Source of the DNA: an uncultured Selenomonas sp.
Lineage (GTDB): Bacteria; Bacillota; Negativicutes; Selenomonadales; Selenomonadaceae
Assembly: GCA_937981305.1 (NCBI GenBank)
Contig: CALJPB010000038.1
Location: 1 to 24,921 of the forward strand
Reading direction: 5' to 3'
DNA length: 24,921 bases
Positions 342-23,868 of the stretch are shown piece by piece (the stretch's first letter is position 1; each line of letters begins with the position of its first letter). The position numbers and the translations under genes were made by a program. The notes beneath the pieces were generated by a model. That model worked only from the letters and a program-made list of their open reading frames with translations, made no database searches and had not been told where the DNA came from.

Positions 342-372
342 TTTCTATTTCCACAAAGATAGGAGCGTTCTC

Positions 373-3605: not shown

Positions 3606-3647
3606 CTCCGTACAGGCGGTGTAGGGCAGAAACTTAGGGGGATTGTC

Positions 3648-5968: not shown

Positions 5969-5979
5969 GGGGTGGATGG

Positions 5980-6882: not shown

Positions 6883-6894
6883 AGAAACGGAAAA

Positions 6895-6933
6895 AACGCC
6901 CGCCGTAGGAGGATTGTTCCCACGGCGGGCGTT
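6895..6933. terminator. Bidirectional intrinsic terminator
   Basis: A perfect 12-bp stem (6895-6906 with 6922-6933, mostly G/C) encloses a 15-base loop. On the minus strand the stem is followed by a run of six T (complement of the A tract at 6891-6896), so it is a strong terminator for the recombinase gene. On the plus strand a weaker, interrupted T-rich stretch follows, which could end the LPS operon. It lies exactly between the two convergent genes. Confidence 0.85.
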
Positions 6934-6945
6934 CGTATTTTCGCG

Positions 6946-8049
6946 TTATTTTTTCTTTGTCGGAGCGGGCGGCTGATACTGCACCGACTCTACCTTTACG
7001 CCCGGGGTGATGCCGCGCGTGTGGCGTTGTTCCATGCGCTCGTGGACGTGGGCGTATTTTGCGGTGACCTTCGGGCTGCGCTGACGCAGGGTCTCCTGTA
7101 CGACGCGCAGATCCTTCGTCTCCTGATAGAGGTTCGTGCCGCAGCTGTGGCGGAAGAGATGGCACGCATAGCCGGGCTGCTTGAGTCCTGCGTCTGTCAG
7201 TGCCCTGTTGATGACGTAGCGGATGCCGACGCGCGTGATGCGTCCCTTCACATTGTTCTGTGCGCAGGAGATGATGGTGGGGGTCAGGCGGCTGACGGGC
7301 GGGATCGCCCCGCGTACCTCCATGTATGCCTTGAGCAGCTGAAACGTCTCCTCGCACGGGTAGATGATCCCTGCGTGTCCCTTTCCTCGGATCTCGATGC
7401 GCCCACGCTGCCAGTCGATGTCCTCGTCTGAGAGGCGCATGACCTCGACGACGCGCAGCCCCTCCACCCCCATGAGGTAGACGATGAGGATGTTGCGCAG
7501 GCGACGCAGTGCGTTCTTGTCCGTCGCAAGCCCCTCGCAGATCTCTCGGATCTGATCGACGGTGAGGTATTTATAGTCCTCGTCAAGATGCTGCGGGTTG
7601 CGCAGCTGCAGGTCGGCGCAGGGGTTCTCGGCGATGAAGGAGAGCCGCTGTGCGACCTTGTAGAACGCGCGGATCGCCGCGCCCTTGATCATGAGCGTCG
7701 CCGCGCTGTAGCCGCGCGTGCGCATATCCTCCATGTAGATGCGGATCTGGTAGTCATGCACATCGCGCAGCGGATGCAGCCCCTGCTCCGCGCACCAGTG
7801 GAGGAACAGACGGATCGCGAGCTCGTACGTGTCGCGTGTGTCCGCCGTGGGTGCGCCGCCTGCGATGTAGCGCGGGAGGTATTCGTGGAAATGTGCGATA
7901 AAGTATTCGGGGGTAATGGCATCCTGCCGCACGTTCATGGCGGGCGCGTTCATGCGCCGCACCGTACCCGGTGTCGTTTCCGTACGCCGCGCAGGAACGC
8001 CCATCGCAGCACTGCCGCCGCTGCGGTAGTTTTCGTTTGTCGCCAACAC
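6946..8049 (-). CDS. Tyrosine-type recombinase/integrase
   Basis: Site-specific recombinase of the XerC/D-phage integrase superfamily. Using the longest reading (GTG at 8049, 367 residues), a SAM-like core-binding domain spans about 45-140 and the catalytic domain about 160-335. Visible active-site residues are R199 (GVEGLRVVEV), K223 (RGKGHAG), H297-x-x-R300 (CHLFRHSCGTNLY) and the nucleophile Y332 (KYAHV). The usual second His/Trp (LGH in most relatives) reads LRQ here, so that position is glutamine or shifted. Start choice is uncertain because no candidate has a good RBS; ATG codons at 8004, 7953 and 7938 are alternatives. It stands alone, with no excisionase or phage genes and no obvious attachment repeats nearby, so a resident recombinase is as likely as a relic of an element. 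Confidence 0.85.
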   Translation of the reverse strand: MLATNENYRSGGSAAMGVPARRTETTPGTVRRMNAPAMNVRQDAITPEYFIAHFHEYLPRYIAGGAPTADTRDTYELAIRLFLHWCAEQGLHPLRDVHDYQIRIYMEDMRTRGYSAATLMIKGAAIRAFYKVAQRLSFIAENPCADLQLRNPQHLDEDYKYLTVDQIREICEGLATDKNALRRLRNILIVYLMGVEGLRVVEVMRLSDEDIDWQRGRIEIRGKGHAGIIYPCEETFQLLKAYMEVRGAIPPVSRLTPTIISCAQNNVKGRITRVGIRYVINRALTDAGLKQPGYACHLFRHSCGTNLYQETKDLRVVQETLRQRSPKVTAKYAHVHERMEQRHTRGITPGVKVESVQYQPPAPTKKK

Positions 8050-8078
8050 AGCACCCGCTTTCGTCTTGTGATGAGGTG

Positions 8079-8108
8079 ATTATAGCACGCGGGGGGCGGC
8101 ATTCGCAA
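8079..8108 (-). promoter_or_regulatory. Candidate promoter for the recombinase gene
   Basis: On the minus strand TTGCGA (8108-8103) and a perfect TATAAT (8084-8079) are 18 bases apart, just upstream of the recombinase start region. The -10 box overlaps the ogt stop codon, so the recombinase could be transcribed independently of ogt. This is based on consensus matching only. Confidence 0.5.
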
Positions 8109-8607
8109 CAGGGAACGCGGCGTGCTGTCCCCGCTCGATCTGCAGCAGCCGCTCCTTGCGTGCAAGACCGCCCGCGTAGCCCGTGAGGCTGCCGTCCGCA
8201 CCGATCACACGGTGGCATGGGATGAGGATGGAGATCGGATTGCGCCCGACCGCACCGCCGACCGCCTGCGCCGACATCCGCTTTTTCTCCTGTTGTTCGA
8301 TGCGCCGTGCAATCGCGCCATAGGTTGTCGTCGCGCCGTATGGAATCGTCCGCAGGATCGCCCATACCGTCTGCTGGAACGCCGTACCCGCAGGAGCGAG
8401 TGCGGGGATGAAGTTCGGGATGCTTCCGTCGAAATACAGATCGAGCCACCGCACCGCCTCCCCGAACACGGGGAGATCCTTTTCGTGCGCCGCCGAGAGA
8501 TCGGGGAAGTCCCTCTCCCCATCGAAGTACAGCCCCGTCAGTGCCGCTCCCTCGCTCGTGAGCGTGATCCCGCCGAGCGGGGATGTATAGTGCCGTTTGC
8601 AGAGCAT
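8080..8607 (-). CDS. ogt: Methylated-DNA-[protein]-cysteine S-methyltransferase
   Basis: Suicide DNA repair protein that moves the methyl group from O6-methylguanine (or O4-methylthymine) to its own cysteine. The 175-residue product has an N-terminal RNase H-like domain and a C-terminal winged-helix domain containing TAFQQTVWAILRTIPYGATTTYG (75-97, DNA recognition helix region) and the active site ILIPCHRVIGADGSLTGYAGG with C131. Length and absence of an Ada N-terminal domain make it an Ogt/MGMT type. ATG 8607 is selected because AGGAGGG (8620-8614) lies 6 bases ahead; a further in-frame ATG upstream at 8655 lacks such a site. It precedes the recombinase on the same strand, but the two have no evident functional link. 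Confidence 0.93.
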   Translation of the reverse strand: MLCKRHYTSPLGGITLTSEGAALTGLYFDGERDFPDLSAAHEKDLPVFGEAVRWLDLYFDGSIPNFIPALAPAGTAFQQTVWAILRTIPYGATTTYGAIARRIEQQEKKRMSAQAVGGAVGRNPISILIPCHRVIGADGSLTGYAGGLARKERLLQIERGQHAAFPVANAAPRVL

Positions 8608-8635
8608 CGATATCCCTCCTGCCGGTGTAGTTCTT

Positions 8636-8710
8636 CTAGTATAGAGCAAAATCATGGATCGGATCGGTGACGAGGACGGTGCTGAGAAATCCGAGGAATC
8701 GTGTTTTCAT
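8636..8710 (-). other. Possible 24-codon leader ORF or truncated gene start ahead of ogt
   Basis: On the minus strand an ATG at 8710 is preceded by AAAGGAG (8725-8719) at an 8-base spacing and opens a 24-residue reading frame, MKTRFLGFLSTVLVTDPIHD followed by FALY, ending 28 bases before the ogt start. The first 16 residues look like the beginning of a signal peptide or membrane helix. It could be a decayed gene start, a short leader peptide, or chance. The good RBS is the only real support. Confidence 0.25.
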
Positions 8711-8729
8711 GAGCATCGCTCCTTTGTGA

Positions 8730-8805
8730 CAGGGGGATGTACAAGGCATCCCTTCCGCCACCACGGCGGAGGCGAAGCCGGCGGCTGCCCGAAGGAGTCC
8801 CACTG
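8730..8805. repeat. Hairpin-rich GC island in the intergenic region (possible dispersed repeat)
   Basis: The 8608-9053 stretch has no convincing protein gene. Its middle holds consecutive hairpins: GGGATG (8734-8739) with CATCCC (8747-8752), and CCGCC (8755-8759) with GGCGG (8765-8769), followed by a further GC-rich self-complementary run. There is no T tract on either side, so an ordinary terminator is unlikely. The compact, palindromic look suggests a REP-like or MITE-like intergenic repeat, but copies elsewhere cannot be seen in this window. Confidence 0.3.
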
Positions 8806-8985
8806 TATCTCCGCATCTGCAGACGAACGCGATTGTTCGGAATGCATTATCTCATTGTATCATAGTTCACGGGAAATTGATCTGTCTTTCACAATAGGTC
8901 GGGTGAAAAATTTGAAAAAGCCCGCCCATAAAAAGAAGGAAAATGAATCATAAATAACGAATGGTTTATGACATAATAATCATAG

Positions 8986-9014
8986 TTGAGAACGCTTCAA
9001 TCGTTGTGTATGGA
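8986..9014 (+). promoter_or_regulatory. Candidate promoter for the substrate-binding lipoprotein
   Basis: TTGAGA (8986-8991) and TATGGA (9009-9014) are 17 bases apart, about 40 bases upstream of the GTG start, in an AT-rich stretch that follows the GC-rich hairpin region. The match is moderate (5 of 6 and 4 of 6). Confidence 0.35.
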
Positions 9015-9053
9015 TATGAAAAGACCAATGCGATCAAAAAGGGGGAATGTACG

Positions 9054-10592
9054 GTGAAACAACTCCTACACTTGTGTATGGCACTTGCGCTCCTTGTACT
9101 CGCGGGCGGCTGCGCTGAGAACCGTGCGGACGAGGATCACGGAGCGCGGATCGTCTATGGATCGAGGGACTACAATCAGATCAATCCGCTTCTGAATGAG
9201 TACGGGGTGATCGACCAGCTGCTCTTTGACGGGGTGATGCGGCGGGATGCGACGGGGGCGACAGTGCCGGGACTGGCGGCATCGTACGAATACGATCCGG
9301 AGTCCTATACCTATGTATTCCGACTGCGTGACGACGTGTTCTGGCACGACGGGAAGCCGCTGCGTGCGGCGGATGTGAAGTTCACCATCGAGGCGATCCA
9401 AAATCCGCTGACGGGCTCGTTCAATACGCAGAACTTCGAGGATGTGCGCGAGATCACCGAGCTCGACGACAAGACCGTGCGCATCCGTCTGTCCGCGCCG
9501 AACGCAGCATTCCTCGACGACATGGTGCAGCCGATCCTGCCAGCACATCTCTTGGCGGGGCGGGATCTGAAGACGACAGGATTCTTCCGCAGCCCCGTCG
9601 GCACGGGGCCATTTGAGCTCGATCATTGGGAGGCAGGCAAGGAAATCGTCCTTGTGAAAAACGAGAACTACTATCGCGGCGCACCGAAGCTCGACAGCGT
9701 CGTATTCAAGATCATCGGGGACGATGTCACGGAGGCGAAGGCACTTGCGGACGGACAGATCGACCTGGCGCATCTCGCTCCGACGAATGCGGCGCAGTTC
9801 GCGGGGAATCCCGCCTACCGCAGCTATGACATGAAGACGACGGACTACCGCGCGATCCTGTTCAACTTCGCCCATCCGTACTGGCAGCGGAATCGTGATC
9901 TCATCCCTGCCATCTCCTGTGCGATCGATCGGCAGGCACTCATCGACAAGGCACTGCTCGGCTACGGAACGCCCGCGTACGGCCCCTTGCAGCGCAGCAT
10001 CTACAACAATCCGAACGTGCAGCGCTACGACTACGACCCCGCAAAGGCGCAGCAGCTCCTCGAGGCGGCGGGCTGCGTGCGGGGCGCAGACGGCTACTAT
10101 ATGCGCGGCGGCGAGGAGGTCGGCTTTCGGCTCACCGCGCAGAACGATAATTTCGCCCGCGGCGAGATTGTCCACGCCGTAGCGGAGCAGCTGTGTGCCG
10201 CCGGCATCCACTGCACGGTGGAGACCCCGGCGCAGATCGACTGGGCCGGGCAGATGGCATACCTCGTCGGCTGGGGTAGCCCGCTCGATCCGGATATGCA
10301 TACCTACAAGGTGTTTTCGACAAACGGGAAAGTGAATGTGGGCCGCTACTCGAACGCACGCGTCGATGAATATCTCATGGCGGCGCGGCGCACGAGCAAC
10401 CCCGATGAGCGGATGCGGCTCTACGGACTCTTTCAGGAGGAGCTGGCAAAGGATCCGCCCTACGTATTCCTCTGCTACATCGATGCCGTCTACGTGGCGA
10501 ACGCACGCATACACGGCATCGCGGAGAACAATCTGCTCGGGCATCGCGCCATCGGATTCTTTGGGAATGTGAACGAGTGGACGGTGGAGTGA
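9054..10592 (+). CDS. ABC transporter substrate-binding lipoprotein (peptide/nickel, SBP_bac_5 family)
   Basis: Extracytoplasmic solute-binding protein of the DppA/OppA/NikA class, 512 residues. The N-terminus is a lipoprotein signal (MKQLLH, a hydrophobic core, then VLAGGC) with C20 as the likely lipidated cysteine. The mature part has the family's typical run INPLL...LLFDGVMRRDATGATVPGLA, then DVFWHDGKPLRAADVKFTIE and, later, PVGTGPFELDHWEAGKEIVL, all landmarks of SBP_bac_5. GTG 9054 is chosen because a G-rich RBS (9041-9045) lies 8 bases ahead and the signal peptide begins there; the upstream extension to 8961 gives no signal sequence. No permease or ATPase genes adjoin, so it is either an orphan receptor or serves a transporter encoded elsewhere. 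The ligand (oligopeptide, nickel chelate or other) cannot be told. Confidence 0.88.
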   Translation: MKQLLHLCMALALLVLAGGCAENRADEDHGARIVYGSRDYNQINPLLNEYGVIDQLLFDGVMRRDATGATVPGLAASYEYDPESYTYVFRLRDDVFWHDGKPLRAADVKFTIEAIQNPLTGSFNTQNFEDVREITELDDKTVRIRLSAPNAAFLDDMVQPILPAHLLAGRDLKTTGFFRSPVGTGPFELDHWEAGKEIVLVKNENYYRGAPKLDSVVFKIIGDDVTEAKALADGQIDLAHLAPTNAAQFAGNPAYRSYDMKTTDYRAILFNFAHPYWQRNRDLIPAISCAIDRQALIDKALLGYGTPAYGPLQRSIYNNPNVQRYDYDPAKAQQLLEAAGCVRGADGYYMRGGEEVGFRLTAQNDNFARGEIVHAVAEQLCAAGIHCTVETPAQIDWAGQMAYLVGWGSPLDPDMHTYKVFSTNGKVNVGRYSNARVDEYLMAARRTSNPDERMRLYGLFQEELAKDPPYVFLCYIDAVYVANARIHGIAENNLLGHRAIGFFGNVNEWTVE

Positions 10593-10613
10593 AGGGCGGC
10601 GTGAATCAAGAGA

Positions 10614-11639
10614 ATGATGGACACAATCTCGTTTTGCTATACCAGATGGGAGTACGGAGCTGACCCCTACCCTCTGCCTGCGGTCAAGATTTTTCTCAAC
10701 GGTGCGGATTTCATGGAGGAAATTCATGCAGCCGAGCGCATCGTTTGCGGCGAGGAGTGCGGTCATGCGCCACTCACCCCTGAGGAGCTTTATGACAGTC
10801 TCACGGAGGACTACAAGGAGGACAGTGCGCTCATCTACGGCTGTACCTGCGGCGTTGCAGAGTGTGACCCGGTCTATGTGCAGATTACGGTGGAGGGAGA
10901 GACGGTCATCTGGCGAGATTTCACATCGCGCTGCTGCAATCCCGAGAACCCGCTTCCGCTCAGGACATTCGTCTTTGATCGTGCGGCGTACTTTGCCGCG
11001 ACGGAGCGGCTGCGGCTCTGGATGAACCGTGACCCGCTCCTCTTTTTTTACGGCGGTATCGCATACGGATATTTGACGCTTGCCATAGAGAAGGCGGGGG
11101 GAACGGTTGACCTCGTCTTCGATGAGCGTTTGAGCGACCCCATACCCGACCTCGTGTATTTTATGAACTGCGTAGCGGAGGGGACGGACATCGAAATTGC
11201 GGCGGGCAATGACTATGGCGACAGCCCGCTCACCCTCGCCGCGATGGGGATGTATCGGGACACGGTGCTCCTGGAGCTGCGCTTTTCGGAGAGCGGCATC
11301 GTGGCGAGTATTCTGCGCCGCGATGAGGTTGTCGCCATGCTGCGGGGGATTGCCGATGCCCTGCGCACAGATGCGTGCTTTCCCTATATGTATCCGTCCT
11401 GCGATGACATCGATGACGAAGCGTTCGACCGCGTTTCGGAGGTTGTGGAGGCACTGGGAAAAGACCTCTCCGAGGAAGAGGAAACGATCCTCCTCTCCCA
11501 AGGGCTCCGTGGGGAAGATACCCCGCTCACGGAGGAGGGCGTGACCTATCTCACGAAGTACCTGACAATGCTGGATACCTATATCGTACCTGACGGGTGG
11601 GTGTCGGCAATTGGAGAAAAGGGCTGCTGCATGAAATGA
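10614..11639 (+). CDS. Hypothetical protein, acidic, with N-terminal Cys cluster
   Basis: I do not recognise this 341-residue protein. It is acidic and soluble-looking, without signal peptide or membrane segments. The N-terminal third contains a Cys-containing beta region, GCTCGVAEC (C77, C79, C84) followed by [15 protein letters not shown] and a CC pair at 107-108; small proteins with a CxCG...C segment before a V-W-x-x-F strand recur in bacteria without a known role. The C-terminal third is helical and very acidic ([21 protein letters not shown]). The start may be ATG 10614 or 10617; the RBS is poor. It begins 21 bases after the lipoprotein gene and may be cotranscribed with it. Coding character is supported by codon-position GC bias like that of its neighbours. 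Confidence 0.6.
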
Positions 11640-11760
11640 AGGCATCACTGGGAACATCACGACCATCTGGACGGATTTTGCCCGCACGCTGTCCACGATC
11701 CTCCACATAGCTTCGGCGATGCGTCCGTTTCGTTTCCTCGACAGGATGAAAAAGATGCGC
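11635..11760 (+). other. Possible gene remnant between the acidic protein and the macro-domain gene
   Basis: The 172-base gap before the macro-domain gene contains an open stretch in the frame of that gene that reads, in part, [20 protein letters not shown] and then [11 protein letters not shown]. It looks like real protein sequence with a membrane-proximal helix and faintly recalls the N-terminus of CdaA-type diadenylate cyclases, which have a helix followed by a FLDI motif. It lacks a start codon and RBS, so at most it is a broken fragment. The resemblance is from memory only. Confidence 0.2.
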
Positions 11761-11811
11761 TACGCTGACACACTTCATTTTAGCAACGATTTATTGAGAG
11801 GAGAGAGAACA

Positions 11812-12342
11812 ATGAAGCCGAACGCATCGAAGAATGAGATTGTCTATTTCGTGGGCGACATTACGACGCTCGCCGTAGATGCCATCGTAAACGCAGCGAA
11901 TTGGAGCCTCCTCGGCGGCGGTGGCGTTGACGGAGCGATTCATCGGGCGGCGGGCAGGGAGCTCCTCGCGGAGTGCCGTACGCTTGGCGGCTGCGCAACG
12001 GGCGCGGCAAAGATCACGAAGGGATATCGTCTGCCCGCGCGCTATGTGATTCATACGGTCGGCCCCGTCTACAGCGGCAGTGCATCCGATGCGGAGCTCC
12101 TGCGCTCCTGCTATCGGAACTCTCTTGAACTCGCACAGACACACGGGCTGCATACCATCGCGTTCCCTGCCATCTCGACCGGTGTCTACGGCTACCCGAA
12201 GGAGGCGGCGGCAGAGATCGCACTCATGACGATTCGGGAGTGGTTTGACGCGCACCCCGATGCGGGTATGTGCGTGACCATCGTGAGCTTCAGCGCACAG
12301 GATGATGCGATCTATCAGAACCTACAGAGGGAACTTCGATAA
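11812..12342 (+). CDS. Macro-domain protein (O-acetyl-ADP-ribose deacetylase, YmdB/MacroD-like)
   Basis: The 176-residue protein is a single macro domain, which binds ADP-ribose and in MacroD/YmdB members hydrolyses O-acetyl-ADP-ribose or removes ADP-ribose from proteins. Visible motifs are [17 protein letters not shown] (14-30, with D16 and N30 at the ADP-ribose site), the glycine loop [16 protein letters not shown] (33-48), and the phosphate loop [16 protein letters not shown]. All key residues of the catalytic MacroD class are present. ATG 11812 is preceded by AGGAG (11799-11803) with 8 bases between; an upstream ATG at 11719 in the same frame lacks an RBS. No ADP-ribosyltransferase gene is visible beside it. 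Its position at the border of a defence island makes a role in phage defence or counter-toxicity possible, but this is inference. Confidence 0.9.
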
Positions 12343-12385
12343 TCATAGGCAGGGAGAAATGAGATGAGGGAATACGAATGAATAT

Positions 12386-12518
12386 GATCACTCCACGGAG
12401 AGGTCAAACCCCATCCTCGTAACTCTCTAAAACGAGATTCGAGTTCGTTTTTGTTTGAGGGGCACGCCATGCTATCGACACATACTTGAGAGAGTCAGAG
12501 TGATCCGGCTCTTTTTTT
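12386..12518 (+). ncRNA. Candidate structured RNA ending in a U-tract
   Basis: This AT-rich non-coding stretch can fold into a closed multi-helix structure. P1 pairs GATCACTC (12386-12393) with GAGTGATC (12498-12505), 8 bp. P2 pairs ACTCTCT (12422-12428) with AGAGAGT (12489-12495), 7 bp, two bases from P1. Stacked directly inside P2 is a hairpin AAAACGA (12429-12435) with TCGTTTT (12445-12451). A fourth hairpin between P1 and P2 pairs GAGG (12400-12403) with CCTC (12415-12418). A run of seven T (12512-12518) follows, as after an intrinsic terminator. It may be a small RNA, or simply the 3' UTR and terminator of the macro-domain gene. I do not recognise a known RNA family, and no reverse transcriptase or Cas gene is nearby. 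Confidence 0.4.
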
Positions 12519-12524
12519 ATAATG

Positions 12525-12533
12525 TGCTATAAG
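12525..12533 (+). promoter_or_regulatory. Candidate extended -10 promoter for the coiled-coil defence-island gene
   Basis: TGC followed by TATAAG (12528-12533) forms an extended -10 element just after the U-tract. No good -35 box is visible. A second -10-like TATAAT overlaps the T tract at 12518-12523. Transcription from about 12540 would give a leader of roughly 100 bases that includes AAAAGGAGG (12553-12561), a perfect Shine-Dalgarno with no start codon at normal spacing. Confidence 0.35.
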
Positions 12534-12640
12534 TACGAATAGGGAAGCATATAAAAGGAGGAAAAAAGCCCTAGAGAGTTGAAGTGTTATCTTTGGATAT
12601 ATTGATCGTTGTCGGTTCGTGGAAAGGATGCGATGAATCC

Positions 12641-14086
12641 ATGCTGATCTTTTCAACAAGACTTCCTGTAAAGGAGACGCTTACCAAGGGAAAATTTTTC
12701 GAGCTTGTTATCCGCTGGAATCAGGACAGTCCGCATCATCGGATCGACGGCATCGAATGGGATGGCGGCTATCGTCACCGTTGGGGCGATATGAAGAATA
12801 TGCTTGAGATCACAGAGTATAACGATGTGGCAGCGGCGCATTTTGTTCAGAGCGAACATGGCGTCCATTGGACAACGGAGTTTATCTTCCATACAGAGCG
12901 GCGGGAGATCGGGATCTACCTCAGCCGTGAAGCGACAGAGAACACGGTTTACTTTCACAAGGAGTTCAAACCGCCATATTTTTTGAAGCTGCTCATGCGG
13001 GAAAATGTTCTTGGATCGGATGGCGGGCTCACTATTTCCGAATATCCGCATTCCTTTGGTGCAACTGCAGATGAGCAGCAGGTGTTGACGCAGCTCTGCT
13101 TGGAGGATGCTGGTGCTTTTCGTCTGCCTGTGGTCTATCTGACGCGGGATTGGTTCACAGAGCACTGTATCGTTGATGAGGGGGAACTGGGGCGTCGCCT
13201 GTGCGGTGTCGCTCATGTATTGGTCGAGTCTGACAAAGATGTGAGCCGCACGTTGAAGGACTTGTGCCATGGGAAGAATGTTTATAACGGCGGTATGGCG
13301 ATCTACTTTCCAAGCGTATCAGCGGCAGCGAAGCGATTTATTCCGTATGACGGAATGGACGTGGAGAAAGTCATGACACAGATGGTGCGCATAATTTTCC
13401 GCTATATGAATCAACAAAAGCGGGAGCGGCTGGACACATGGGACGGCATTCAAATGATGCAAATGCGACGGCAAGCTGATCAACTGCTTGAGGAGAAGCG
13501 TCGGATCGAGGAAACCCGAAAGCAGACCTCGAAGGAAAAAGAACAATACTGGAAAGAAAAAGAACAATACTGGGGTGAATATGTCAAGGCACAGAAACAG
13601 GTCGAGGAACTTACCAAACAGAATGCCCGTCTGCAAAGTGAGCTTGCCGGCTTACGCGCACGCGTGGATTCGATGGGGGAAAATCCGCTTCTTTATTATG
13701 GCGATGAGAGGGAATTTTATCAAGGCGAAATGCTTGAGTTTGTACGTACTGCACTGTCAGAGAAACTGGATCGTCTGCCGAAGGAAAAAGATCGCCATCT
13801 CAGATGCGCTGACGTGCTGCAGGATCTGCTGAATGCCAATGAGTCCGAGGAGATACAGGCGCAGCGGCAGACGGAGCTAAAGCGTGTACTGAAGGGGGAG
13901 CGTACTCTTACTGCTTCAATTCGGAGAACTTTGATTGACATGGGCTTCAGGATTACATCCGAGGGAAAACATCACAAACTGACTTATTATAATGATGACC
14001 GCTATATCGTCACGATGTCCAAGAGTGGTAGCGATCGGCGCGGCGGTGATAATCTTATTTCGGAAATCAAGACTAGGGTTTACTGA
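12641..14086 (+). CDS. Uncharacterised coiled-coil protein with HicA-like C-terminal domain
   Basis: The 481-residue protein has three parts. Residues 1 to about 260 form a beta-rich domain (FSTRLPVKETLTKGKFFELV, GIEWDGGYRHRW, GGMAIYFPS) of a kind that recurs, unnamed, in bacterial accessory islands. Residues about 266-346 are a charged coiled coil with two tandem EKEQYW heptads. After a linker, the last 65 residues, containing MGFRITSEGKHHKLTYYNDD and a closing GSDRRGGDN, resemble a HicA-type small alpha/beta domain with H444/H445 at the position of the HicA catalytic histidine. HicA folds bind double-stranded RNA or cleave mRNA; whether this one does is unknown. ATG 12641 is preferred since the domain begins there; a GTG at 12584 would add 19 residues. 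Lower GC than the LPS genes and the position directly before the helicase operon suggest a transferred defence gene. Function is not established. Confidence 0.7.
   Translation: MLIFSTRLPVKETLTKGKFFELVIRWNQDSPHHRIDGIEWDGGYRHRWGDMKNMLEITEYNDVAAAHFVQSEHGVHWTTEFIFHTERREIGIYLSREATENTVYFHKEFKPPYFLKLLMRENVLGSDGGLTISEYPHSFGATADEQQVLTQLCLEDAGAFRLPVVYLTRDWFTEHCIVDEGELGRRLCGVAHVLVESDKDVSRTLKDLCHGKNVYNGGMAIYFPSVSAAAKRFIPYDGMDVEKVMTQMVRIIFRYMNQQKRERLDTWDGIQMMQMRRQADQLLEEKRRIEETRKQTSKEKEQYWKEKEQYWGEYVKAQKQVEELTKQNARLQSELAGLRARVDSMGENPLLYYGDEREFYQGEMLEFVRTALSEKLDRLPKEKDRHLRCADVLQDLLNANESEEIQAQRQTELKRVLKGERTLTASIRRTLIDMGFRITSEGKHHKLTYYNDDRYIVTMSKSGSDRRGGDNLISEIKTRVY
13535..13576 (+). repeat. Two tandem 21-base repeats in the coiled coil
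   Basis: Units 13535-13555 and 13556-13576 share an identical first 18 bases and encode EKEQYWK and EKEQYWG. The unit is one heptad long and keeps the frame, so copy-number changes would lengthen or shorten the coiled coil without breaking the protein. Confidence 0.75.
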
Positions 14087-14100
14087 GCAGCAGGGAGAGA

Positions 14101-14112
14101 TGTCCAGGGACA
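14101..14112. promoter_or_regulatory. Short inverted repeat upstream of the helicase promoter, possible operator
   Basis: TGTCC and GGACA flank a 2-base centre in the 110-base gap between the coiled-coil gene and the helicase gene, about 37 bases upstream of the -10 box. The spacing is too tight for an RNA hairpin, so a protein-binding site is more likely if it matters at all. No regulator gene is adjacent. Confidence 0.25.
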
Positions 14113-14145
14113 CTCCATATATACTGCCCAACACTCTCATTCTTG

Positions 14146-14154
14146 TGTTATAAT
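14146..14154 (+). promoter_or_regulatory. Extended -10 promoter of the helicase-methylase-ATPase operon
   Basis: TGT followed by a perfect TATAAT (14149-14154) gives a TGnTATAAT extended -10 element; the -35 region is weak. Transcription would begin near 14161, about 36 bases before ATG 14197. The three genes that follow are spaced by 4 and 23 bases, so this single promoter probably serves all of them. Confidence 0.6.
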
Positions 14155-14196
14155 ATACAGAAAATAGAAGACATAGAAGGAGCGAGAGGCAATCAG

Positions 14197-17100
14197 ATGG
14201 CGCGATTGGAAGATCTTACCATAGGTGCACGGGTCACAGGGATCATGGGCGATGCTCCCGTGACCGTCGTCGCAGTGAACTGGTTCGGCGATATGGGGCT
14301 TGAGGTCACGGTGAAGGACGATCGCGGGCAGCTCTCCGGTCAGATCCTCTATCGGGAGGATGAGGCGCGGCTTGCGGTGAGCGGTGCGCACTTGCCGTGG
14401 TCGTTTGATGCGGATGCGGATGACATGCGCCTTGCCTCGGAGGCATACCGCATCCACATCGCCCACCTCTTCGACCCCTATCTTGCTGTGCATACCTCTG
14501 CCATCGATCCCTTGCCGCATCAGATCTCGGCCGTCTATCAGGAGATGCTGCCGCGCCTGCCGCTCCGCTACATCCTCGCGGACGACCCCGGCGCGGGCAA
14601 GACCATCATGACAGGACTGTTTCTCAAGGAATTGCTCATCCGCGGTGACCTGAAACGCTGTATGATCGTCTCGCCGGGCAGTCTCGCCGAGCAGTGGCAG
14701 GACGAGCTCTATCGCAAATTCAACCTGCATTTCGAGATCCTGACGAACGATCGCATCGAGTCTGCTGTGACGGGCAACGTGTTTGCGGAGACGAAATTCT
14801 GCATCGTCCGCCTGGACAAGCTCGCACGGAGTGAAGCGATTCAGGAAAAACTGCGTGTCACAGACTGGGATCTCATCGTCTGCGATGAGGCGCACAAGAT
14901 GTCGGCGACCGTCTGGGCCGGTGAGGTCAAATACACCAAACGATTTCTGCTGGGACGGCTGCTCTCAGGACTCACGCGGCATTTCCTCCTCCTCACGGCA
15001 ACGCCGCACAATGGGAAAGAGGCGGATTTCCAGCTCTTTATGTCCCTCATTGACCCCGATCGCTTCGAGGGCGCTGCGCGCAGCGGCACGCAGGCAGTCG
15101 ATGTATCCGATGTCATGCGCCGCCTCGTCAAGGAGGATCTCTTGAAATTCGACGGTACGCCGCTCTTCCCCGAGCGTAGAGCGTACACCGTCAACTATGA
15201 CCTCTCTCCGATGGAGGAAAAACTCTACGCAGAGGTCACATCCTATGTACAGGAGCAGTTCAACCGCGCCGATCAGCTGGACAAGGAACGCAAGACAACC
15301 GTCGGCTTTGCACTCACCATCCTCCAACGGCGTCTCGCCTCATCGCCGGAGGCGATCTATCAGTCCCTCCGTCGGAGGCGTGAGCGCATGGAGCAGCGTC
15401 TCGCAGAGGAGCAGATCGGCCGGCGGGCGACGGCATACAGCATATCCGCATCCGATGACTACGATGACGACGATCTGCCCGCAGCCGAGATGGAGGACAC
15501 GGAGGAGCGCGTCGTCGATCAGGCATCTGCCGCGCAGACCATCGCAGAGCTCGAGGCGGAGATTCAGATTCTAAAGAACCTTGAGCACATGGCGGACAGC
15601 GTGCGGCAGAGCGGTGCAGATCGGAAATGGGACGAGCTATCGAAGCTGCTGCAGGACGACGCCACCATGTTCGAGGGGGACGGCACGCGTGAGAAACTCA
15701 TCATCTTTACGGAGCACAGAGACACACTGCGCTATCTGACGGATAAAATCCGCTCCCTGCTCGGTCGTGAGGAGACGGTCGTCACCATCCACGGCGGCAT
15801 GCTCCGCGACGATCGACGCAAGGTCGAAGAGCTGTTCAAACAGGATAAGGAAGTCCGCATCCTGATCGCCACCGACGCGGCAGGCGAGGGCATCAACCTG
15901 CAGCGTGCACATCTCATGGTCAACTATGACCTGCCGTGGAACCCGAACCGCCTCGAATAACGCTTCGGACGCATCCATCGCATCGGGCAGACGGAGGTCT
16001 GTCACCTGTGGAACCTCGTGAGCAAGGAGACGCGCGAGGGCATGGTGTTCCAGCGCCTCTTTGACAAGCTGGAGCAGGAGCGTGAGGCACTGCATGGCAA
16101 GGTCTTCGATGTGCTCGGCAAACTCACCTTCGAAAACCGTCCGCTGCGTGATCTTCTCATTGAAGCGATTCGCTACGGCAACCGGCAGGAGGTGCGTGAT
16201 CGGCTGAATCAGGTCGTCGACACGAGCCTTGACCGCGCAGAGCTGCAAAAGCTGCTGGACGAAAACGCGCTGACCGAGGACACGATGGACGTACACAGCG
16301 TCACGGCGATCCGTGCAGATATGGAGCGCATGGAGGCGCGCAGGCTTCAGCCGTACTTCATCGAGAGCTTCTTCCTCGCGGCGTTGCGTCGGCTCGGCGG
16401 GAAAATCCATGTGCGTGAAAACGGACGCTATGAGATCACCTCCGTGCCATTTGCCGTGCGGAATCGTGACTGCCAGATCGGCACAGGGGAATCCGTACTC
16501 CGACGTTATGAGCGCATCTCGTTTGACAAGGCGTATTGCGCCGTGCAGGGACAGGCAGCTGCTGCGCTGATTGCCCCGGGGCATCCGCTCCTCGAGGCTG
16601 TGATCGACCTCGTGCGGGAGCGCAGCATGGACGTGATGAAGCGTGGCACGATTTTTGTGGATGAGAACGATGCAGGTACGGACGCGCGACTCCTCTTCTA
16701 TATCGAGGATGCCGTACAGGACGGTGTGCCGCTCCCCGGCGGCGGACAGCGCGTCATCTCAAAGCACATCCACTTCGTTGAGATTCGTGCCGACGGCAGT
16801 GCGGCGAACGCGGGCTATGCACCCTATCTTGACTATCGTGCGCCTCAGCCCGAGGAAGCCGAAGCCATCCGTGCCTTCCTCGCGGGGCAGGACTGGCTCT
16901 CGCATGATGTGGAGGGGATGGCACGCAGCTATGCCGTACGCGAGCTTATCCCAACCCATCTGAAAGAGATACGGGAGCGCAGAACGGCACGGATCGACAA
17001 GACCATCAAGGCGGTCACGGAACGTCTGACCGCAGAGATCCAGTATTGGGACTACCGTGCCGGGGAACTCCGGGAAAAGGAAGCCGCAGGCAAGACGAAT

Positions 17101-17700
17101 GCCCGTCTGAACGCACAGAAGGCGGCGCAGCGTGCAGAGGAACTCAGTGCGCGGATGCAGCGGCGGCTTGCAGAGCTGGATATGGAGAAACGCATCACAC
17201 CGACCGCCCCCATCGTGGTCGGAGGTGCACTTGTCATACCGCGCGGACGATTGGACACACTCATGGGGCGCACGGAGCGTGTCACTGCCGATCCGACGGC
17301 ACGCAGCGCAGTCGAGCGGGCGGCGATGAATGCCGTCATGGAGATTGAACGCTCGCTTGGCTATGTGCCGCGTGACGTGAGCGCGGAGAAGGTCGGCTAC
17401 GATGTGGAGTCCGAGATTCCGATGCATCTGCGTGCATCGGACGATGCGCCGCTGCGCTTCATCGAGGTCAAGGGGCGGCGGGCGGATGCTGCGACCGTCA
17501 CCGTCACGAAGAACGAAATCCTCACGGCATTCAACAAACCCGAGGAGTACATCCTTGCACTCGTTGCAGTAGACGGTACACGCACACGGACGACGTATCT
17601 ACAGCGTCCCTTCCGTGAACGTCCGGACTTCGCCGCGACGAGCGTAAACTATGATATCAAGGAACTGATGGACGGCGCGACCGTCCTCTTGCAGAGGTAG
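14197..17700 (+). pseudogene. SNF2-family DEAD/DEAH helicase with C-terminal DUF3883 domain, interrupted by an in-frame stop
   Basis: A 1168-codon reading frame is broken only by TAA at 15958-15960 (codon 588). The first half (14197-15960) has Walker A DDPGAGKTIMTG (K135), DEAH box CDEAHK (230-233), motif III LLTATPHNGKE (about 265-275) and the second RecA domain with ATDAAGEGINLQ. Immediately after the stop the same frame continues with motif VI, RFGRIHRIGQ, a helical middle, then GYDVES (1067-1072) and FIEVKGR with E1090/K1092, a DUF3883 PD-(D/E)XK-like domain. Relatives read NPNRLEQRFGRIHRIGQ, so one C-to-T change of a Gln CAA explains the stop. Such helicases (BrxHII/DrmD type) are ATP-driven motors of BREX and DISARM-like systems. 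ATG 14197 follows AAGGAG and GAGAGG; an upstream TTG overlaps the promoter. Without readthrough the protein lacks motif VI and should be inactive. A sequencing error is the main alternative. Confidence 0.85.
15958..15960 (+). other. Premature TAA in helicase motif VI
   Basis: The TAA replaces the first, near-invariant Gln of the QxxGRxxR motif VI. Reading frame before and after is unchanged and there is no insertion or deletion nearby. The next base is C (TAA-C), and no obvious recoding structure follows. Confidence 0.9.
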
Positions 17701-17704
17701 GATC

Positions 17705-20416
17705 ATGACATACAAGAAGAAACTCATCGAGGTCGCGCTTCCGCTGGACGCGATCAACGCGGAATCCGCGCGTGAGAAATCCATCCGACACGGGCATCCG
17801 TCAACGCTCCATCTGTGGTGGTCGCGTAAGCCAACGGCGACGGCGCGTGCCGTGATCTGGGCATCGCTCGTCGATGATCCGTCCTCACATCCAGAGCAGT
17901 TCCCCACGGAGAAGGCACAGGAGAAGGAGCGGCGACGCCTCTTTCGCATACTCGAGGAGCTCGTGAAATGGGAGAACTCCAATGATAAGCGCGTGCTGGA
18001 TGCCGCGAAAGCGGAGGTACTGAAGTCGACGGACGGGAATCTGCCGCCGCTGCTTGACCCCTTTGCGGGCGGCGGGACGATCCCGCTGGAGGCACAGCGG
18101 CTTGGGCTTGAGGCGCACGCGCATGACCTTAACCCTGTCGCCGTCATGATCAACAAGGCGATGATCGAGATCCCGCCGAAGTTCGCGGGTCAGCCGCCCG
18201 TGAATCCCGAGGCACAGAGGAACAAACTCACGGAGGACGACTGGTCGGGTACGCGCGGACTCGCCGAGGACGTGCGCTACTACGGCGAATGGATGAAGCG
18301 GAAGGCATTTGAGAAGATTGGACACCTCTATCCGAAGGTCAAGGATGCCGACGGGAAAGAGCACACCGTCATCGCATGGCTCTGGGCGCGTACCGTGAAA
18401 TGCCCGAATCCTGCCTGTGGATGTGAGATGCCGCTTGCGAGCAGTTTTGAGCTGTCGAAGAAAAAGGGAAAAGAGGCGTATATTCAGCCGAATGTTGACG
18501 GGACAAATATTCGTTACGAAGTGCGCTATGGGCGTGATTTTCCTGCGTCCCCTAAAACGGCGAAAGGACTGAAATTTCGCTGTATTTCCTGTGGTGAAGC
18601 AACTACGCCGGAATACATTCGGAACGAAGCTGCATCCGAACACATGGGGATGTCCATGATGGCTGTTATAGCCGAGGGACAGAGGGGGAGAATCTATCTG
18701 TCGCCAAACGAAAGTCAGACCATGTTTTTGAGTGATTTAATGGTACATGACTATCCAACTGGTGCAATGCCCCAGAATCCACGTTGGTTCAGTCCTCCGC
18801 TATACGGTTTGGAGGAATATCATCAATTATTCACAAATCGACAATTAAATGCACTGACTATATTGTCTGAACTCATCTCTGTGGTGCGAGTACAGGTCAT
18901 CTCAGATGGAGGTAGTGAGGAATACGCCCAGGCAATATGTTCTTATCTTTCATTTGCGGTGGATCGTACAGCGAATCGGATGTCAACGCTCTGCGTGTGG
19001 AATCGTATTGGTGAAAAAATTGAGCAGACATTTGCGAGACAGGCAATTCCAATGATTTGGGAGTTTGCAGAGGCAAATATTTTCAGTAATTCCACGGGAA
19101 GTTGGAGCGGCTCTTTGGAATGGATTCCAAAATGCATTGAACATTTTCCTGCAACCTTGCAGGGAGTTGCTAAACAAGCGAACGCACAAGACGGGATAGG
19201 AATGCGGAATGTCATGATTTCCACGGATCCGCCCTATTACGACATGATTGGCTATGCCGACCTATCGGATTTTTTCTATATATGGATGCGAAAGGCACTC
19301 AAGGATATTTACCCCGAACTGTTTCGGACAATGCTCGTTCCAAAGGAAGAGGAACTGATTGCAACACCCTATCGTTTTGATGGAAGTGCTGATAGGGCGA
19401 AGGAGTTCTTTGAGCATGGTATGAGCGATGCCTTATTGCAGATTTATCATGCGGCAGATAACGATATCCCGATCACAATTTACTATGCGTTTAAGCAAAC
19501 AGAGACCGATCGGGACAATAATACGGCATCTACGGGATGGGAGACCATGTTGTCTGCAATTCTCAATGCGGGACTTTCCATTACGGCAACATGGCCAATT
19601 CGCACAGAGCGACCGACCGGACTCAAAGCATTTGAAAATGCACTCGCTTCCTCCATCGTTCTTGTCTGCCGCAAGCGTCCCGCCGATGCACCGGTCGCTA
19701 CACGGCGTGACTTCCTTACGGCACTCAAGCGGGAACTGCGCCCCGCCCTTGTGAACCTCCAGGAGAGCAACATCGCACCTGTAGATATGGCGCAGAGTGC
19801 CATCGGTCCCGGCATGGCGGTCTACTCGCGCTATGCGCAGGTTCTTGAGGCAGACGGTACGCCGATGACGGTGCGCACGGCACTTCAGATCATCAATCAG
19901 GAGCTCGACCAATACTTCTCCGAGCAGGACGGAGCACTCGATCGGGATACGATTTTCTGTGTGGCACTCTATACGCAGTACGCATTCCGCGAGGTGAAGT
20001 TCGGCGATGTGGATGTGCTCGCGCGTGCGAAGAATACGAGTACCGACCGCCTACGGGAGAAGGGCATCCTCTTCGCGGAGCGGGGGACGGTACGCCTCCT
20101 GCAGCGCGATGAGATGGTAGCACAGAGGACGTTCGATGTCTCTGTGACCTGGCAGGTTGTTCAGCGTCTCGCCCATGCGCTCGATGTGGATGGTGTGGAG
20201 GGCGCGGCGCAGATCGTTGTGGGGCTTTCCTCGGAGGCCGCAGAGAAAGCACGCGCACTCGCCTATCGCCTGTTCCAGACGGCAGAGCGGCGAGGTTGGG
20301 CACAGGAAGCCTATGCGTATAACACGCTGGTCTCGAATTGGCGGGCGATCCAAGAAGTCGCCGCGCGGATCAAGAAAGAACAAGGCGCGAATCAGGGCGG
20401 ACTCTTCGCCGAGTAG
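17705..20416 (+). CDS. DUF1156 domain-containing adenine-specific DNA methyltransferase with Zn-ribbon (PglXI-like)
   Basis: The 903-residue protein starts with the DUF1156 block LIEVALPLDAINAESAREKS then HGHPSTLHLWWSRKPTATAR (30-49), a hallmark of this methylase family. SAM-binding motif I is LLDPFAGGGTIPLEA (116-130) with D141 as the next acidic residue, and catalytic motif IV is DPPYYD (508-513), typical of N6-adenine methylation. A Zn-ribbon is formed by C233/C238/C240 and C293/C296. Relatives are the PglXI methylases of type 3 BREX and related helicase-DUF499 systems, which mark host DNA as self. The RBS overlaps the helicase stop, 4 bases before ATG. Codons about 250-650 (roughly 18455-19650) are clearly more AT-rich than both ends of the gene, which suggests a recombined internal segment. 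The reading frame is intact. Confidence 0.9.
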   Translation: MTYKKKLIEVALPLDAINAESAREKSIRHGHPSTLHLWWSRKPTATARAVIWASLVDDPSSHPEQFPTEKAQEKERRRLFRILEELVKWENSNDKRVLDAAKAEVLKSTDGNLPPLLDPFAGGGTIPLEAQRLGLEAHAHDLNPVAVMINKAMIEIPPKFAGQPPVNPEAQRNKLTEDDWSGTRGLAEDVRYYGEWMKRKAFEKIGHLYPKVKDADGKEHTVIAWLWARTVKCPNPACGCEMPLASSFELSKKKGKEAYIQPNVDGTNIRYEVRYGRDFPASPKTAKGLKFRCISCGEATTPEYIRNEAASEHMGMSMMAVIAEGQRGRIYLSPNESQTMFLSDLMVHDYPTGAMPQNPRWFSPPLYGLEEYHQLFTNRQLNALTILSELISVVRVQVISDGGSEEYAQAICSYLSFAVDRTANRMSTLCVWNRIGEKIEQTFARQAIPMIWEFAEANIFSNSTGSWSGSLEWIPKCIEHFPATLQGVAKQANAQDGIGMRNVMISTDPPYYDMIGYADLSDFFYIWMRKALKDIYPELFRTMLVPKEEELIATPYRFDGSADRAKEFFEHGMSDALLQIYHAADNDIPITIYYAFKQTETDRDNNTASTGWETMLSAILNAGLSITATWPIRTERPTGLKAFENALASSIVLVCRKRPADAPVATRRDFLTALKRELRPALVNLQESNIAPVDMAQSAIGPGMAVYSRYAQVLEADGTPMTVRTALQIINQELDQYFSEQDGALDRDTIFCVALYTQYAFREVKFGDVDVLARAKNTSTDRLREKGILFAERGTVRLLQRDEMVAQRTFDVSVTWQVVQRLAHALDVDGVEGAAQIVVGLSSEAAEKARALAYRLFQTAERRGWAQEAYAYNTLVSNWRAIQEVAARIKKEQGANQGGLFAE

Positions 20417-20439: not shown

Positions 20440-23400
20440 ATGGGCAGCAATCACGAAAAGGTGCGGCAGGGGGAGCGTATTCTGCTCTTTGCACTCTCGG
20501 ACTATGTCTGCAAGGAGTTGAAGCAGACCTATGGGGCGGACTGGTGGGAGGACGGCGTTCTGGACATCCTCTATGATGACCAGAAGCGCAGTCTGCCGCT
20601 GTCGGGGGACTGGGGGACGCTCGTCGACTCGCTCGATATGGCGTTGGCACTGCTCCTCTTTGACCTGCACTGGAGTGATATCTTCTCACGCAAGCTGCCG
20701 GTAAGCAATCGCACCTGGGTGAAAGAGCTCAAGGGTGTGCGCAATGATCTTGCCCATCTCGGCGGCAAGGATTTCACCGATGATGATACATGGCGTGCGC
20801 TCGATACGATGGCGCGTCTCTGTGCGTCGATCGACGACGATAGTGCAGAGGAGATCCGCGAGATTTTGCGCGAGCTGCGCTATGGCTCGGCGGCCGGCTC
20901 GATGAATGGTGCGGCGGCGGTCTCTGCCCCCAAAACAGCCGCACCCAATACGGGCGGCATCCTGCAGTCTGTCCCCGTGAGCAGTCTGCCGAGCTGGCGC
21001 GACGTAATCAAACCGCATCCGGATGTGGCGGCGGGACGGTACAAGAACGCGGAGTTTGCCGCTGATCTGGCGCAGGTAGCGCGCGGCGAGGGCGCCTTTG
21101 AGTACCGTGACCCCGTGGAGTTCTTTGCGCGCACCTATGTGACCGAGGGCATGGCGGGGCTGCTCATGCAGGCACTTCGACGCATCGGCGGCAAGGACGG
21201 CGAGCCCGTGATCCAGCTCAAGACGGCATTCGGCGGCGGCAAGACGCACAGTATGCTCGCGCTCTATCACATGCTGCGCGGAACGGTACCGCTCGACAAG
21301 ATCCCTGCAGTGCGGCCTGTCCTCGCGCGTGCGGGGCTGTCCACACTGCCCAAGGCGAACGTGGCGGTGCTCGTCGGTACTGCCATCGATCCGACGCGGG
21401 TGCAGCGTCCGCCGCACATGCCGGGGTTGATGATTCATACGCTGTGGGGGGAGATGGCGGCACAGCTCGCTGCATCGGCGGGCAATTCGAAGCTCTACGA
21501 CTATGTGAAGGAGGCGGACAAGAAGGGGGTATCTCCCGGATCGGAGGCACTGAAGAATCTCTTTGACGCGGCGGGGCCGTGCCTCATCCTCATGGATGAG
21601 CTGGTCGCCTATGCAAAGAAAATCTATGGTGTGGATGGTCTTCCTGCCGGCTCGTTTGACAACTTCATTTCCTTTATCCAGGAGATCACCGAGGCGGCAC
21701 GTGCGAGTGAGAACAGCCTCGTGGTGGCGTCGATCCCCGAGTCGGAGATCGAGATTGGCGGTGCGGCAGGGCAGGCTGCGCTTGAGAGCATCGCGCATAC
21801 CTTCGGGCGTATGGAGGCGATCTGGAAGCCCGTGACGGCGAACGAGGGCTTTGAGGTTGTGCGTCGCCGCCTCTTCCTCGACTGCGAGGACACGGATGCC
21901 AGAGACCGCGTCTGTGCGGCATTCAGCGAGATGTACCATGCGAATCAGGACGTATTTCCCGTGGAGGCTCGCGAGCTGGAGTACCGTGAGCGTATGATCT
22001 CGTGCTATCCGATTCACCCCGAGGTGTTCGACCGCCTTTACGAGGACTGGGCGACACTGGAGCGTTTTCAACGGACGCGCGGCGTGCTCCGCCTGATGGC
22101 GGCGGTGATTCATGAGTTGTGGATGGGCAGCGACGCGGGGCTGCTCATCCTGCCCGGCTCTCTGCCGATGGATATTCCGTCTGTGCGCGACGAGCTGACT
22201 CGCTATCTGCCCGACGGGTGGATCGCACTCGTGGACAGCGAGGTGGACGGCAAGAAGGCGACCCCCTATAAGAAGGATCAGGAGAACGCACGCCTCGGCA
22301 AGTTCCTAGCGGCGCGGCGTGTGGCGCGTACGATCATGCTCGGATCTGCACCGAGCGTGCGTGCACAGTCGGTACGCGGCATCGAGTCTGCCCGCATCTC
22401 GCTCGGTGTTGTTCAGCCCGGCGAGAATATCTCTGTGTTCAAGGACGCGCTGAGTACGCTCGAGACTTCGCTCTCGTATCTCTATACCAATCCGTCGCGC
22501 AGTCGCTACTGGTACGACACGCGTCCGACGCTGCGCAAGACGGTGACGGATCGTGCCTCTCAGATCGCAGATGCCGATGTCGTCCGTGAGATCGAGATGC
22601 GTCTGCGCAAATGCAAAAAGGAGTCCCCGTTTGTGGGACTCCATATCTGTCCAGCGTCCTCTCTGGATGTACCGGATGAGCAGGCAGCACGGCTCGTTCT
22701 CCTGCGTCCGACGGAGACGCATACGGTGAACAAGGCGGACAGTGCTGCGATGACTGCGGCAGTGGATGTTTTGAACAATCGCGGGAGCAATACGCCGCGC
22801 ATCTATCGAAATATGCTTCTCTTTGTCGCAGCGGACGCGGGTCTGATGAATGATTTGCAGCAGGATGTCCGCCGCTATCTCGCGTGGCAGTCGATTCAGA
22901 ATGACCGTGAGTCGCTGAATCTCGATGCCGCGCAGAACCGCGAGACGGAGAGCAGTCTGCGTGCAGCGCATGATACGGTAGATGCGCATCTGCGGGAGGC
23001 GTATTGCTGGCTGCTGATCCCATACGTGGATAAGACGGCGGATGTGAAGACCGTTCAGTGGGAGATGCCTCGTATCGGCGGCGATGAGAGCATTGTGACC
23101 AAGGCGGCGAAGAAGGTACGGACGGATGAGGCGGTCATTTCGCGCTGGGCACCCATGCTGCTGAAGATGGAGCTGGACAGTCTGCTCTGGGCATCCTCCG
23201 ATCACCTGCCGGTCAAGACGCTGTGGGAGCAGCTGTGTACCTATTGCTATCTCCCACGCCTTGCCGTGGAGGAGGTGCTCATGCAGACGATTCGCGAGGG
23301 CGTGAACTCCGATCAATACTTTGCCCTCGCAGCGGGATTCGATGGCACACGCTATATCGACCTGATGTTCAACCGTTCGGTTTCACACGTCGATAAGTCC

Positions 23401-23868
23401 GCACTTCTCGTGAAGATGGCAGTCGCGCAAAAACAGCTTGCCGAGGACACAGCAAAGCGTCAGGCAGAGATGGATGCTGCGGCATCGGACAGAGAGCACA
23501 CGGCCGCCCCGTATGGCGGCAATGTGCAGGGCAATATGCCGGATGGCTCCGCCGATACTGCGCATGGTAGTGTGGCGGATGGCAAATCGCCGTATGGACG
23601 TCCAATTCCTACGGCATCCGCTCCTGCACCTGCGCAAAAACGGCGCTTCTTCCTCTCTGCCGCGCTCGATACGACCCGCATCAACCGCGACGTTCAGAAC
23701 TACGTCGAAGAGGTTATCCGCCACCTCACCTCCGAGGACGGCACACGCGTCACCATCTCCCTCGAAGTGGAGGCCGAAAGTGACAATGGCTTCTCCCCCC
23801 AGACCATCCGCACCGTCTCCGAGAATGCACGCACACTCGGCGCGAAGGATGTAGGGTTTGAGGAGTGA
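20440..23868 (+). CDS. DUF499 ATPase with N-terminal Swt1-type HEPN domain
   Basis: Large AAA+-like P-loop ATPase, 1142 residues. The first 140 residues form a Swt1-family HEPN domain with the Rx4H ribonuclease motif intact as R101-NDLA-H106. A linker of low complexity follows, then DUF499: KTAFGGGKTHSMLALYHML with Walker A K268/T269, and Walker B CLILMDELVAYAKK with D386/E387. A late charged, low-complexity linker (about 1005-1065) precedes the conserved C-terminal ALDTTRINRDVQNYVEEVIRH type domain. DUF499 proteins act as the BrxC/PglY-like ATPase partner of DUF1156 methylases in BREX-like systems. ATG 20440 is chosen because AGGAGG (20426-20431) lies 8 bases ahead; the frame is open further upstream but inside the methylase gene. 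The HEPN domain raises the possibility of RNA cleavage as an abortive step; this is inference from motif conservation. Confidence 0.9.
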   Translation: MGSNHEKVRQGERILLFALSDYVCKELKQTYGADWWEDGVLDILYDDQKRSLPLSGDWGTLVDSLDMALALLLFDLHWSDIFSRKLPVSNRTWVKELKGVRNDLAHLGGKDFTDDDTWRALDTMARLCASIDDDSAEEIREILRELRYGSAAGSMNGAAAVSAPKTAAPNTGGILQSVPVSSLPSWRDVIKPHPDVAAGRYKNAEFAADLAQVARGEGAFEYRDPVEFFARTYVTEGMAGLLMQALRRIGGKDGEPVIQLKTAFGGGKTHSMLALYHMLRGTVPLDKIPAVRPVLARAGLSTLPKANVAVLVGTAIDPTRVQRPPHMPGLMIHTLWGEMAAQLAASAGNSKLYDYVKEADKKGVSPGSEALKNLFDAAGPCLILMDELVAYAKKIYGVDGLPAGSFDNFISFIQEITEAARASENSLVVASIPESEIEIGGAAGQAALESIAHTFGRMEAIWKPVTANEGFEVVRRRLFLDCEDTDARDRVCAAFSEMYHANQDVFPVEARELEYRERMISCYPIHPEVFDRLYEDWATLERFQRTRGVLRLMAAVIHELWMGSDAGLLILPGSLPMDIPSVRDELTRYLPDGWIALVDSEVDGKKATPYKKDQENARLGKFLAARRVARTIMLGSAPSVRAQSVRGIESARISLGVVQPGENISVFKDALSTLETSLSYLYTNPSRSRYWYDTRPTLRKTVTDRASQIADADVVREIEMRLRKCKKESPFVGLHICPASSLDVPDEQAARLVLLRPTETHTVNKADSAAMTAAVDVLNNRGSNTPRIYRNMLLFVAADAGLMNDLQQDVRRYLAWQSIQNDRESLNLDAAQNRETESSLRAAHDTVDAHLREAYCWLLIPYVDKTADVKTVQWEMPRIGGDESIVTKAAKKVRTDEAVISRWAPMLLKMELDSLLWASSDHLPVKTLWEQLCTYCYLPRLAVEEVLMQTIREGVNSDQYFALAAGFDGTRYIDLMFNRSVSHVDKSALLVKMAVAQKQLAEDTAKRQAEMDAAASDREHTAAPYGGNVQGNMPDGSADTAHGSVADGKSPYGRPIPTASAPAPAQKRRFFLSAALDTTRINRDVQNYVEEVIRHLTSEDGTRVTISLEVEAESDNGFSPQTIRTVSENARTLGAKDVGFEE

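Follow-up and report, generated by a model that had tools for sequence, protein, structure and literature searches.

The locus described here raises the question of what a single nonsense codon, lying within an otherwise open defence helicase gene, says about the state of the system to which that gene belongs. The window, by which we mean the whole stretch of 24921 nucleotides that was analysed, contains on its plus strand the frame of hmaA (positions 14197–17697; 1167 codons; terminal TAG at 17698–17700), and the TAA at 15958–15960, codon 588, is the sole in-frame stop ahead of the terminal one. From position 15940 the sequence reads AACCCGAACCGCCTCGAA TAA CGCTTCGGACGCATCCATCGCATCGGGCAG. The 5′ part of hmaA (14197–15957, plus strand, 587 codons) encodes GAGKT, DEAH and TATP, which we take to be motifs I, II and III, together with most of RecA2, as indicated by matches to SNF2-rel_dom, Helicase_C and positions 1–601 of the PADLOC HmaA profile PDLC00659 (950.5 bits). 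The residues of these motifs are conserved in 77–80 of 80 loci, the best 80 of at least 580 relatives. The 3′ part (15961–17697, plus strand, 579 codons) is open as well and matches positions 603–1170 of the same profile (691.2 bits), the two halves thus lying back to back on its 1176 positions. It carries a NOV_C domain (PF13020; RFIEVKGR), read as PD-(D/E)XK-like from passages of PMC12839542 that place an active PD-(D/E)XK nuclease at the C-terminal end of Type-1 helicases. The profile matches bear out the initial annotation in its view that the gene encodes a defence SNF2 helicase.

Directly 3′ of the stop, locus alignment places motif VI, RFGRIHRIGQ (15961–15990, plus strand), which is identical in all of the 78–79 loci covering each residue, again among the best 80 of at least 580 relatives, and is absent from the truncated product. 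RapA of E. coli, whose structures have been solved, is not a defence protein; it shares the SF2 core and the same motif VI with HmaA, and in the alignment LEQRIGRLDRIGQ stands opposite LEQRFGRIHRIGQ of the intact relative P0001, which supports the motif VI label. The nonsense codon had been placed exactly on the glutamine of motif VI. The TAA is indeed solitary and does occupy a glutamine column, but it lies one codon 5′ of RFGRIHRIGQ, so that no part of motif VI is kept.

Two further genes follow on the plus strand. hmaB (17705–20416) encodes a DUF1156 adenine methylase of 903 aa with FAGGG and DPPY motifs (PDLC00660/00661, with 1094.4 bits for PDLC00660; PF06634), and hmaC (20440–23868) encodes a DUF499 ATPase with an N-terminal HEPN_Swt1 domain (PDLC00662, 1068.1 bits; PF04465; PF18731). 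The frame of hmaC opens at a TTG at 20338, and the ATG at 20440 was chosen as the likely start. Both frames are open and a motif check found their catalytic motifs present, so that, with one stop in 1167 codons of hmaA, the earlier statement that the rest of the helicase frame and the downstream methylase and ATPase are open was confirmed. Because the two halves of hmaA match HmaA and are then adjoined by hmaB and hmaC, the locus is, as judged by homology, an Hma (helicase-methylase-ATPase) locus, alias Type-1 DUF499-centred BREX-related (BR). Its helicase, methylase and ATPase genes adjoin one another in that order, as in the Hma system of PADLOC (HmaA/HmaB/HmaC), and each has Hma as its top PADLOC match; the premature stop in hmaA is a feature of the window locus.

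According to passages of the two papers concerned, Hma was a candidate system of Payne et al. 2021 (PMC8565338) and was later reclassified as Type-1 DUF499-centred BREX-related (PMC12839542). Passages of the latter also describe the features that the window locus shares with this type, namely an SNF2 helicase with a C-terminal nuclease-type domain, a DUF1156 methylase with DPPY and a DUF499 ATPase that is often fused to HEPN; the window locus differs by its interrupted helicase-nuclease frame. HmaB is called an m5C methylase in part of PMC8565338, whereas the DPPY motif in the window and passages of PMC12839542 point to N6-adenine. A working Hma or Type-1 BR system needs a complete helicase-nuclease frame, and because the TAA at codon 588 precedes both motif VI and NOV_C, we file the locus as a homologous but, to judge from its frame, disrupted Hma locus and not as a working system. 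Membership of DISARM was rejected. hmaA shares SNF2 helicase homology with DrmD, but its scores are far under the curated cut-offs (333.5 bits compared with 610 for NF038317; 165.1 compared with 950 for NF038318, in the 5′ half of hmaA only); among the six proteins scanned, matches to DISARM models were confined to the hmaA halves. The gene upstream of hmaA (12584–14086) has a weak match to PADLOC HEC-07 (E 3.4e-9) and a HicA-like match at its C-terminus (E 2.1e-4), HEC standing for Hma-embedded candidates in PMC12988326. The neighbours at 12584–14083 and 23927–24919 gave no tblastn match at 1e-6 against the hma loci examined, an Rfam scan found nothing at gathering scores and no tRNA was found in the window.

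We then compared codon 588 with the corresponding column in relatives, which had been said to carry glutamine there, and they do. The column is Gln in all 79 genome-contig loci that cover it (the remaining one of the best 80 of at least 580 relatives, L068, stops short of the column), in 20/20 class-level loci, two of which share their genomes with L058 and L063, and in 6/6 viral-contig loci; in none of these three sets did a stop recur at this column. For 240 proteins (the best 120 of 7998 plus the best 120 of 6975), column 588 is covered by 223 of the alignments, 222 with Gln and one with Arg, although a stop at this column could not have shown up in predicted proteins. Two proteins, P0133 of 586 aa and P0171 of 585 aa, terminate close to column 588, where there may be either a nonsense codon or the end of the contig. 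Among the matches listed, P0001 is an intact relative of 1167 aa with 94% identity, and P0222, labelled Selenomonas sp., is a partial 94% match that ends before column 588.

The stop had been explained as one transition from CAA to TAA. This holds only if the ancestor had CAA, the rarer Gln codon, which is unproven: CAG, which is two changes from TAA, accounts for 41 of the 43 Gln codons in the hmaA frame (CAA for two) and for 66 of the 79 at column 588 in relatives (CAA for 13). The importance first attached to the exact motif VI position found no support either. Since 25 of the 59 codons of hmaA that are one transition from a stop sit in columns at least 95% conserved (448 of 1167 for all columns), the placement appears to mean little.

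On this evidence we consider that the window probably holds an accessory Hma operon with a recent nonsense codon in hmaA, which would be an ordinary loss-of-function allele, either fixed in the strain or a population variant. This reading is favoured by the single TAA in a full-length frame, the invariant Gln in the 79 covering loci, the intact P0001 and comparable lesions elsewhere. Translation would end before motif VI and give a 587-aa product. The arginine-bearing motif VI couples ATP hydrolysis to movement, and a product that keeps the ATP-binding motifs but has lost motif VI together with the nuclease-like domain at the C-terminus should, from what is known of the family, neither translocate nor cut. 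Because the truncated product lacks both elements, the sequenced cells most likely do not restrict by means of Hma. HmaB and HmaC can still be encoded and may be made at a normal or a reduced level. Approximately 1.74 kb of mRNA ahead of hmaB would be left untranslated, and polarity could lower the expression of hmaB and hmaC. The suggestion that the motor was lost and the methylase kept thus fits the sequence as far as the stopped hmaA and the open hmaB and hmaC are concerned, but because of the possible polarity the retention of self-marking by HmaB is not assured. A promoter scan gave no plus-strand site between 15961 and 17705 and none just before hmaA either (total of three compared with a chance expectation of 3.1), a result that carries little weight. 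Among the papers listed by the literature searches, titles and abstract beginnings describe no nonsense or silenced hmaA, and the text of PMC12839542 contains neither 'pseudogen' nor 'premature stop' nor 'frameshift'.

The main rival of the loss-of-function reading is a wrong consensus base, arising from a consensus or base-calling error or from a mixed population collapsed in the assembly, with the real hmaA intact. We regard this as rather unlikely, although the hmaA frame is otherwise open and undecayed and a close intact relative exists in P0001, as an error would have it. Over the 1166 residues compared, 65 differences separate the window from P0001. Polarised by 39 more distant relatives, 24 of them are derived on the window side and 27 on the P0001 side, with 14 unresolved; the ratio of window to P0001 is 14:16 before the stop and 10:11 after it (Fisher p = 1.0). 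Because the frame beyond the stop is without decay, the stop is apparently recent, polymorphic or an error. The 'recent' part of the original switch-off proposal agrees with this result, but an error, or a gene that works by read-through, would leave the frame just as free of decay. Against an error, the flank shared with the relative genome G124 shows no error signature. It aligns at 93.8% (1–2828) and 97.1% (2847–8655), and in the coding stretches of 357–8655 gaps were found only at gene edges, apart from one compensated pair of 1-base gaps. Since coding gaps are so few, the flank sequence is apparently not error-rich, a statement that covers the stretch shared with G124, outside which the hma operon lies. 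Furthermore, the Gln codon that dominates the frame is two substitutions from TAA, so that a single miscall would not give TAA; this would be a modest argument, because the one-step codon stands at column 588 in 13 of the 79 relatives.

The comparison with G124 also bears on the genomic setting. We call the bacterium Selenomonas-like because of the label of P0222 and because G124 was found within the class of G002, Acidaminococcus massiliensis. Colinearity stops at approximately 8655, and the next shared piece (9018–10592, 88% identical) lies approximately 39 kb away in G124; from this break and displacement, the hma operon appears to be in a variable region. A DNA search for hmaA in the 14 genomes of G124's genus found nothing in 13 and one weak 80-base match in G135, so that we regard the operon as accessory; it is apparently present in a patchy manner among relatives. 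A plasmid search for the operon gave three records with at most 6% of 12584–20413 covered, phage records gave no high-similarity match to the operon and viral contigs gave no exact match to the 30 bases round the stop. An integrase-family gene is located at 6946–8049, near the hma operon. At 2829–2846, approximately 2 kb absent from the window separates the G124 pieces that match 357–2828 and 2847–3605. A dispersed repeat at 11636–11817 accounts for 39 of at least 42 G124 matches for window 3601–14196, scattered over contig C1 (a lower bound, with 40 of 128 candidates scored), and is possibly an intergenic repeat family.

A different reading of the same lesion is that it was selected as an off-switch, with the motor lost and HmaB methylation kept, which would avoid self-restriction or permit DNA uptake. 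We consider this improbable, even though neither hmaB nor hmaC is interrupted and both encode their catalytic motifs. Among the best 80 of at least 580 relatives, counting only loci with the whole gene and ignoring stops before HmaC residue 60, hmaA is broken in 4/67, hmaB in 7/47 and hmaC in 0/28. The four broken hmaA genes comprise two in-frame stops, both TAG (L032 and L061), one frame change and one insertion. The hmaB breaks number five to seven, since five are clear frame changes but the 'pieces' seen in L078 and L079 may instead reflect divergence; even so, breaks are no rarer in hmaB than in hmaA, which argues against selection for loss of the motor. In-frame stops alone number 2/67 for hmaA and 0/47 for hmaB, and L026 has an hmaA stop at residue 51 in an incomplete gene, outside the 67. 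The L061 locus, from Desulfovibrio piger, is consistent with an off-switch in that its hmaB and hmaC matches are without stops.

In 379 Negativicutes genomes, with at most two candidates scored per genome, matches at E <= 1e-60 were found for HmaA in 29 genomes, for HmaB in 31 and for HmaC in 38. HmaB without an HmaA match in the family search was seen in 7 of the 31 genomes, as an off-switch might lead one to expect, but the converse also exists, with HmaA lacking an HmaB match in 5/29. A tblastn search of these seven genomes with P0001 gave only partial 31–33% matches in three of them and nothing in the other four; the seven may be incomplete, the gene being at a contig edge in G205 and G318 and the hmaB and hmaC matches of G309 being on different contigs, or they may use another effector. 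The same survey flagged in-frame stops in 4 of 32 HmaA, 2 of 41 HmaB and 1 of 42 HmaC matches, a lean to hmaA in which one of the four (G066) is a terminal stop. Two hmaB-hmaC pairs, L126 and L128, have no hmaA within 7.3 and 8.5 kb upstream respectively, and these too would suit an off-switch. A third pair, L129, with no hmaA in 4.8 kb upstream, carries an internal stop in hmaB itself, which speaks against it; the 932-aa gene upstream of this hmaB matches SduA (DUF4263; E 3.5e-8). A signature of selection is absent, and polarity may silence hmaB. Overall, the break data appear neither to show nor to exclude a preference for hmaA compared with hmaB. Second, divergent DUF1156 methylases (31–39% to the window HmaB) occur in hma loci L029, L030, L031, L042, L051, L058 and L063, and L122, from viral contigs, has a second DUF1156 methylase match at 42%.

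That the TAA is recoded, or read through to give a functional product as the initial annotation had also offered, is very improbable. Either would account for the conserved downstream frame, but TAA ends 3 of the 15 frames listed, the folding of the RNA downstream of the stop is no more stable than that of shuffled sequences (z = -0.21) and the relatives examined have no stop at column 588. We give just as little credence to a two-piece protein, in which the 587-aa fragment and a restarted C-terminal fragment (~552 aa from ATG 16042) would work together. An AAGGAG-like stretch, possibly a Shine-Dalgarno sequence, was seen on frame inspection upstream of the in-frame ATG at 16042–16044 (plus strand), and hmaA is split into two overlapping frames in the class-level loci L117 and L118, elsewhere than at column 588 (query residues 635/864 and 757/756). 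However, the first in-frame start beyond the stop is a GTG at 16018, and a restart there or at the ATG would still be without motif VI, which would then be in neither piece; moreover, no examined relative is broken at column 588. Phase variation was rejected, as there are no direct or inverted repeats of at least 12 bases in 15700–16200.

Apart from the ordinary loss-of-function allele that we favour, the loci can be arranged along a single path, in which 'mark only' would be a stable condition that Hma loci go through, HmaA being silenced and HmaB methylation, with HmaC, kept as self-marking or as a regulator; the window allele, the L061 allele and the L126/L128 pairs would be stages of the path. 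We hold such a path to be improbable, but if 'mark only' states were stable, they could explain DUF1156 methylases that have no helicase partner. The window locus, an accessory defence operon with an interrupted effector gene and a codable methylase, also calls for care in tools that infer activity solely from which genes are present.
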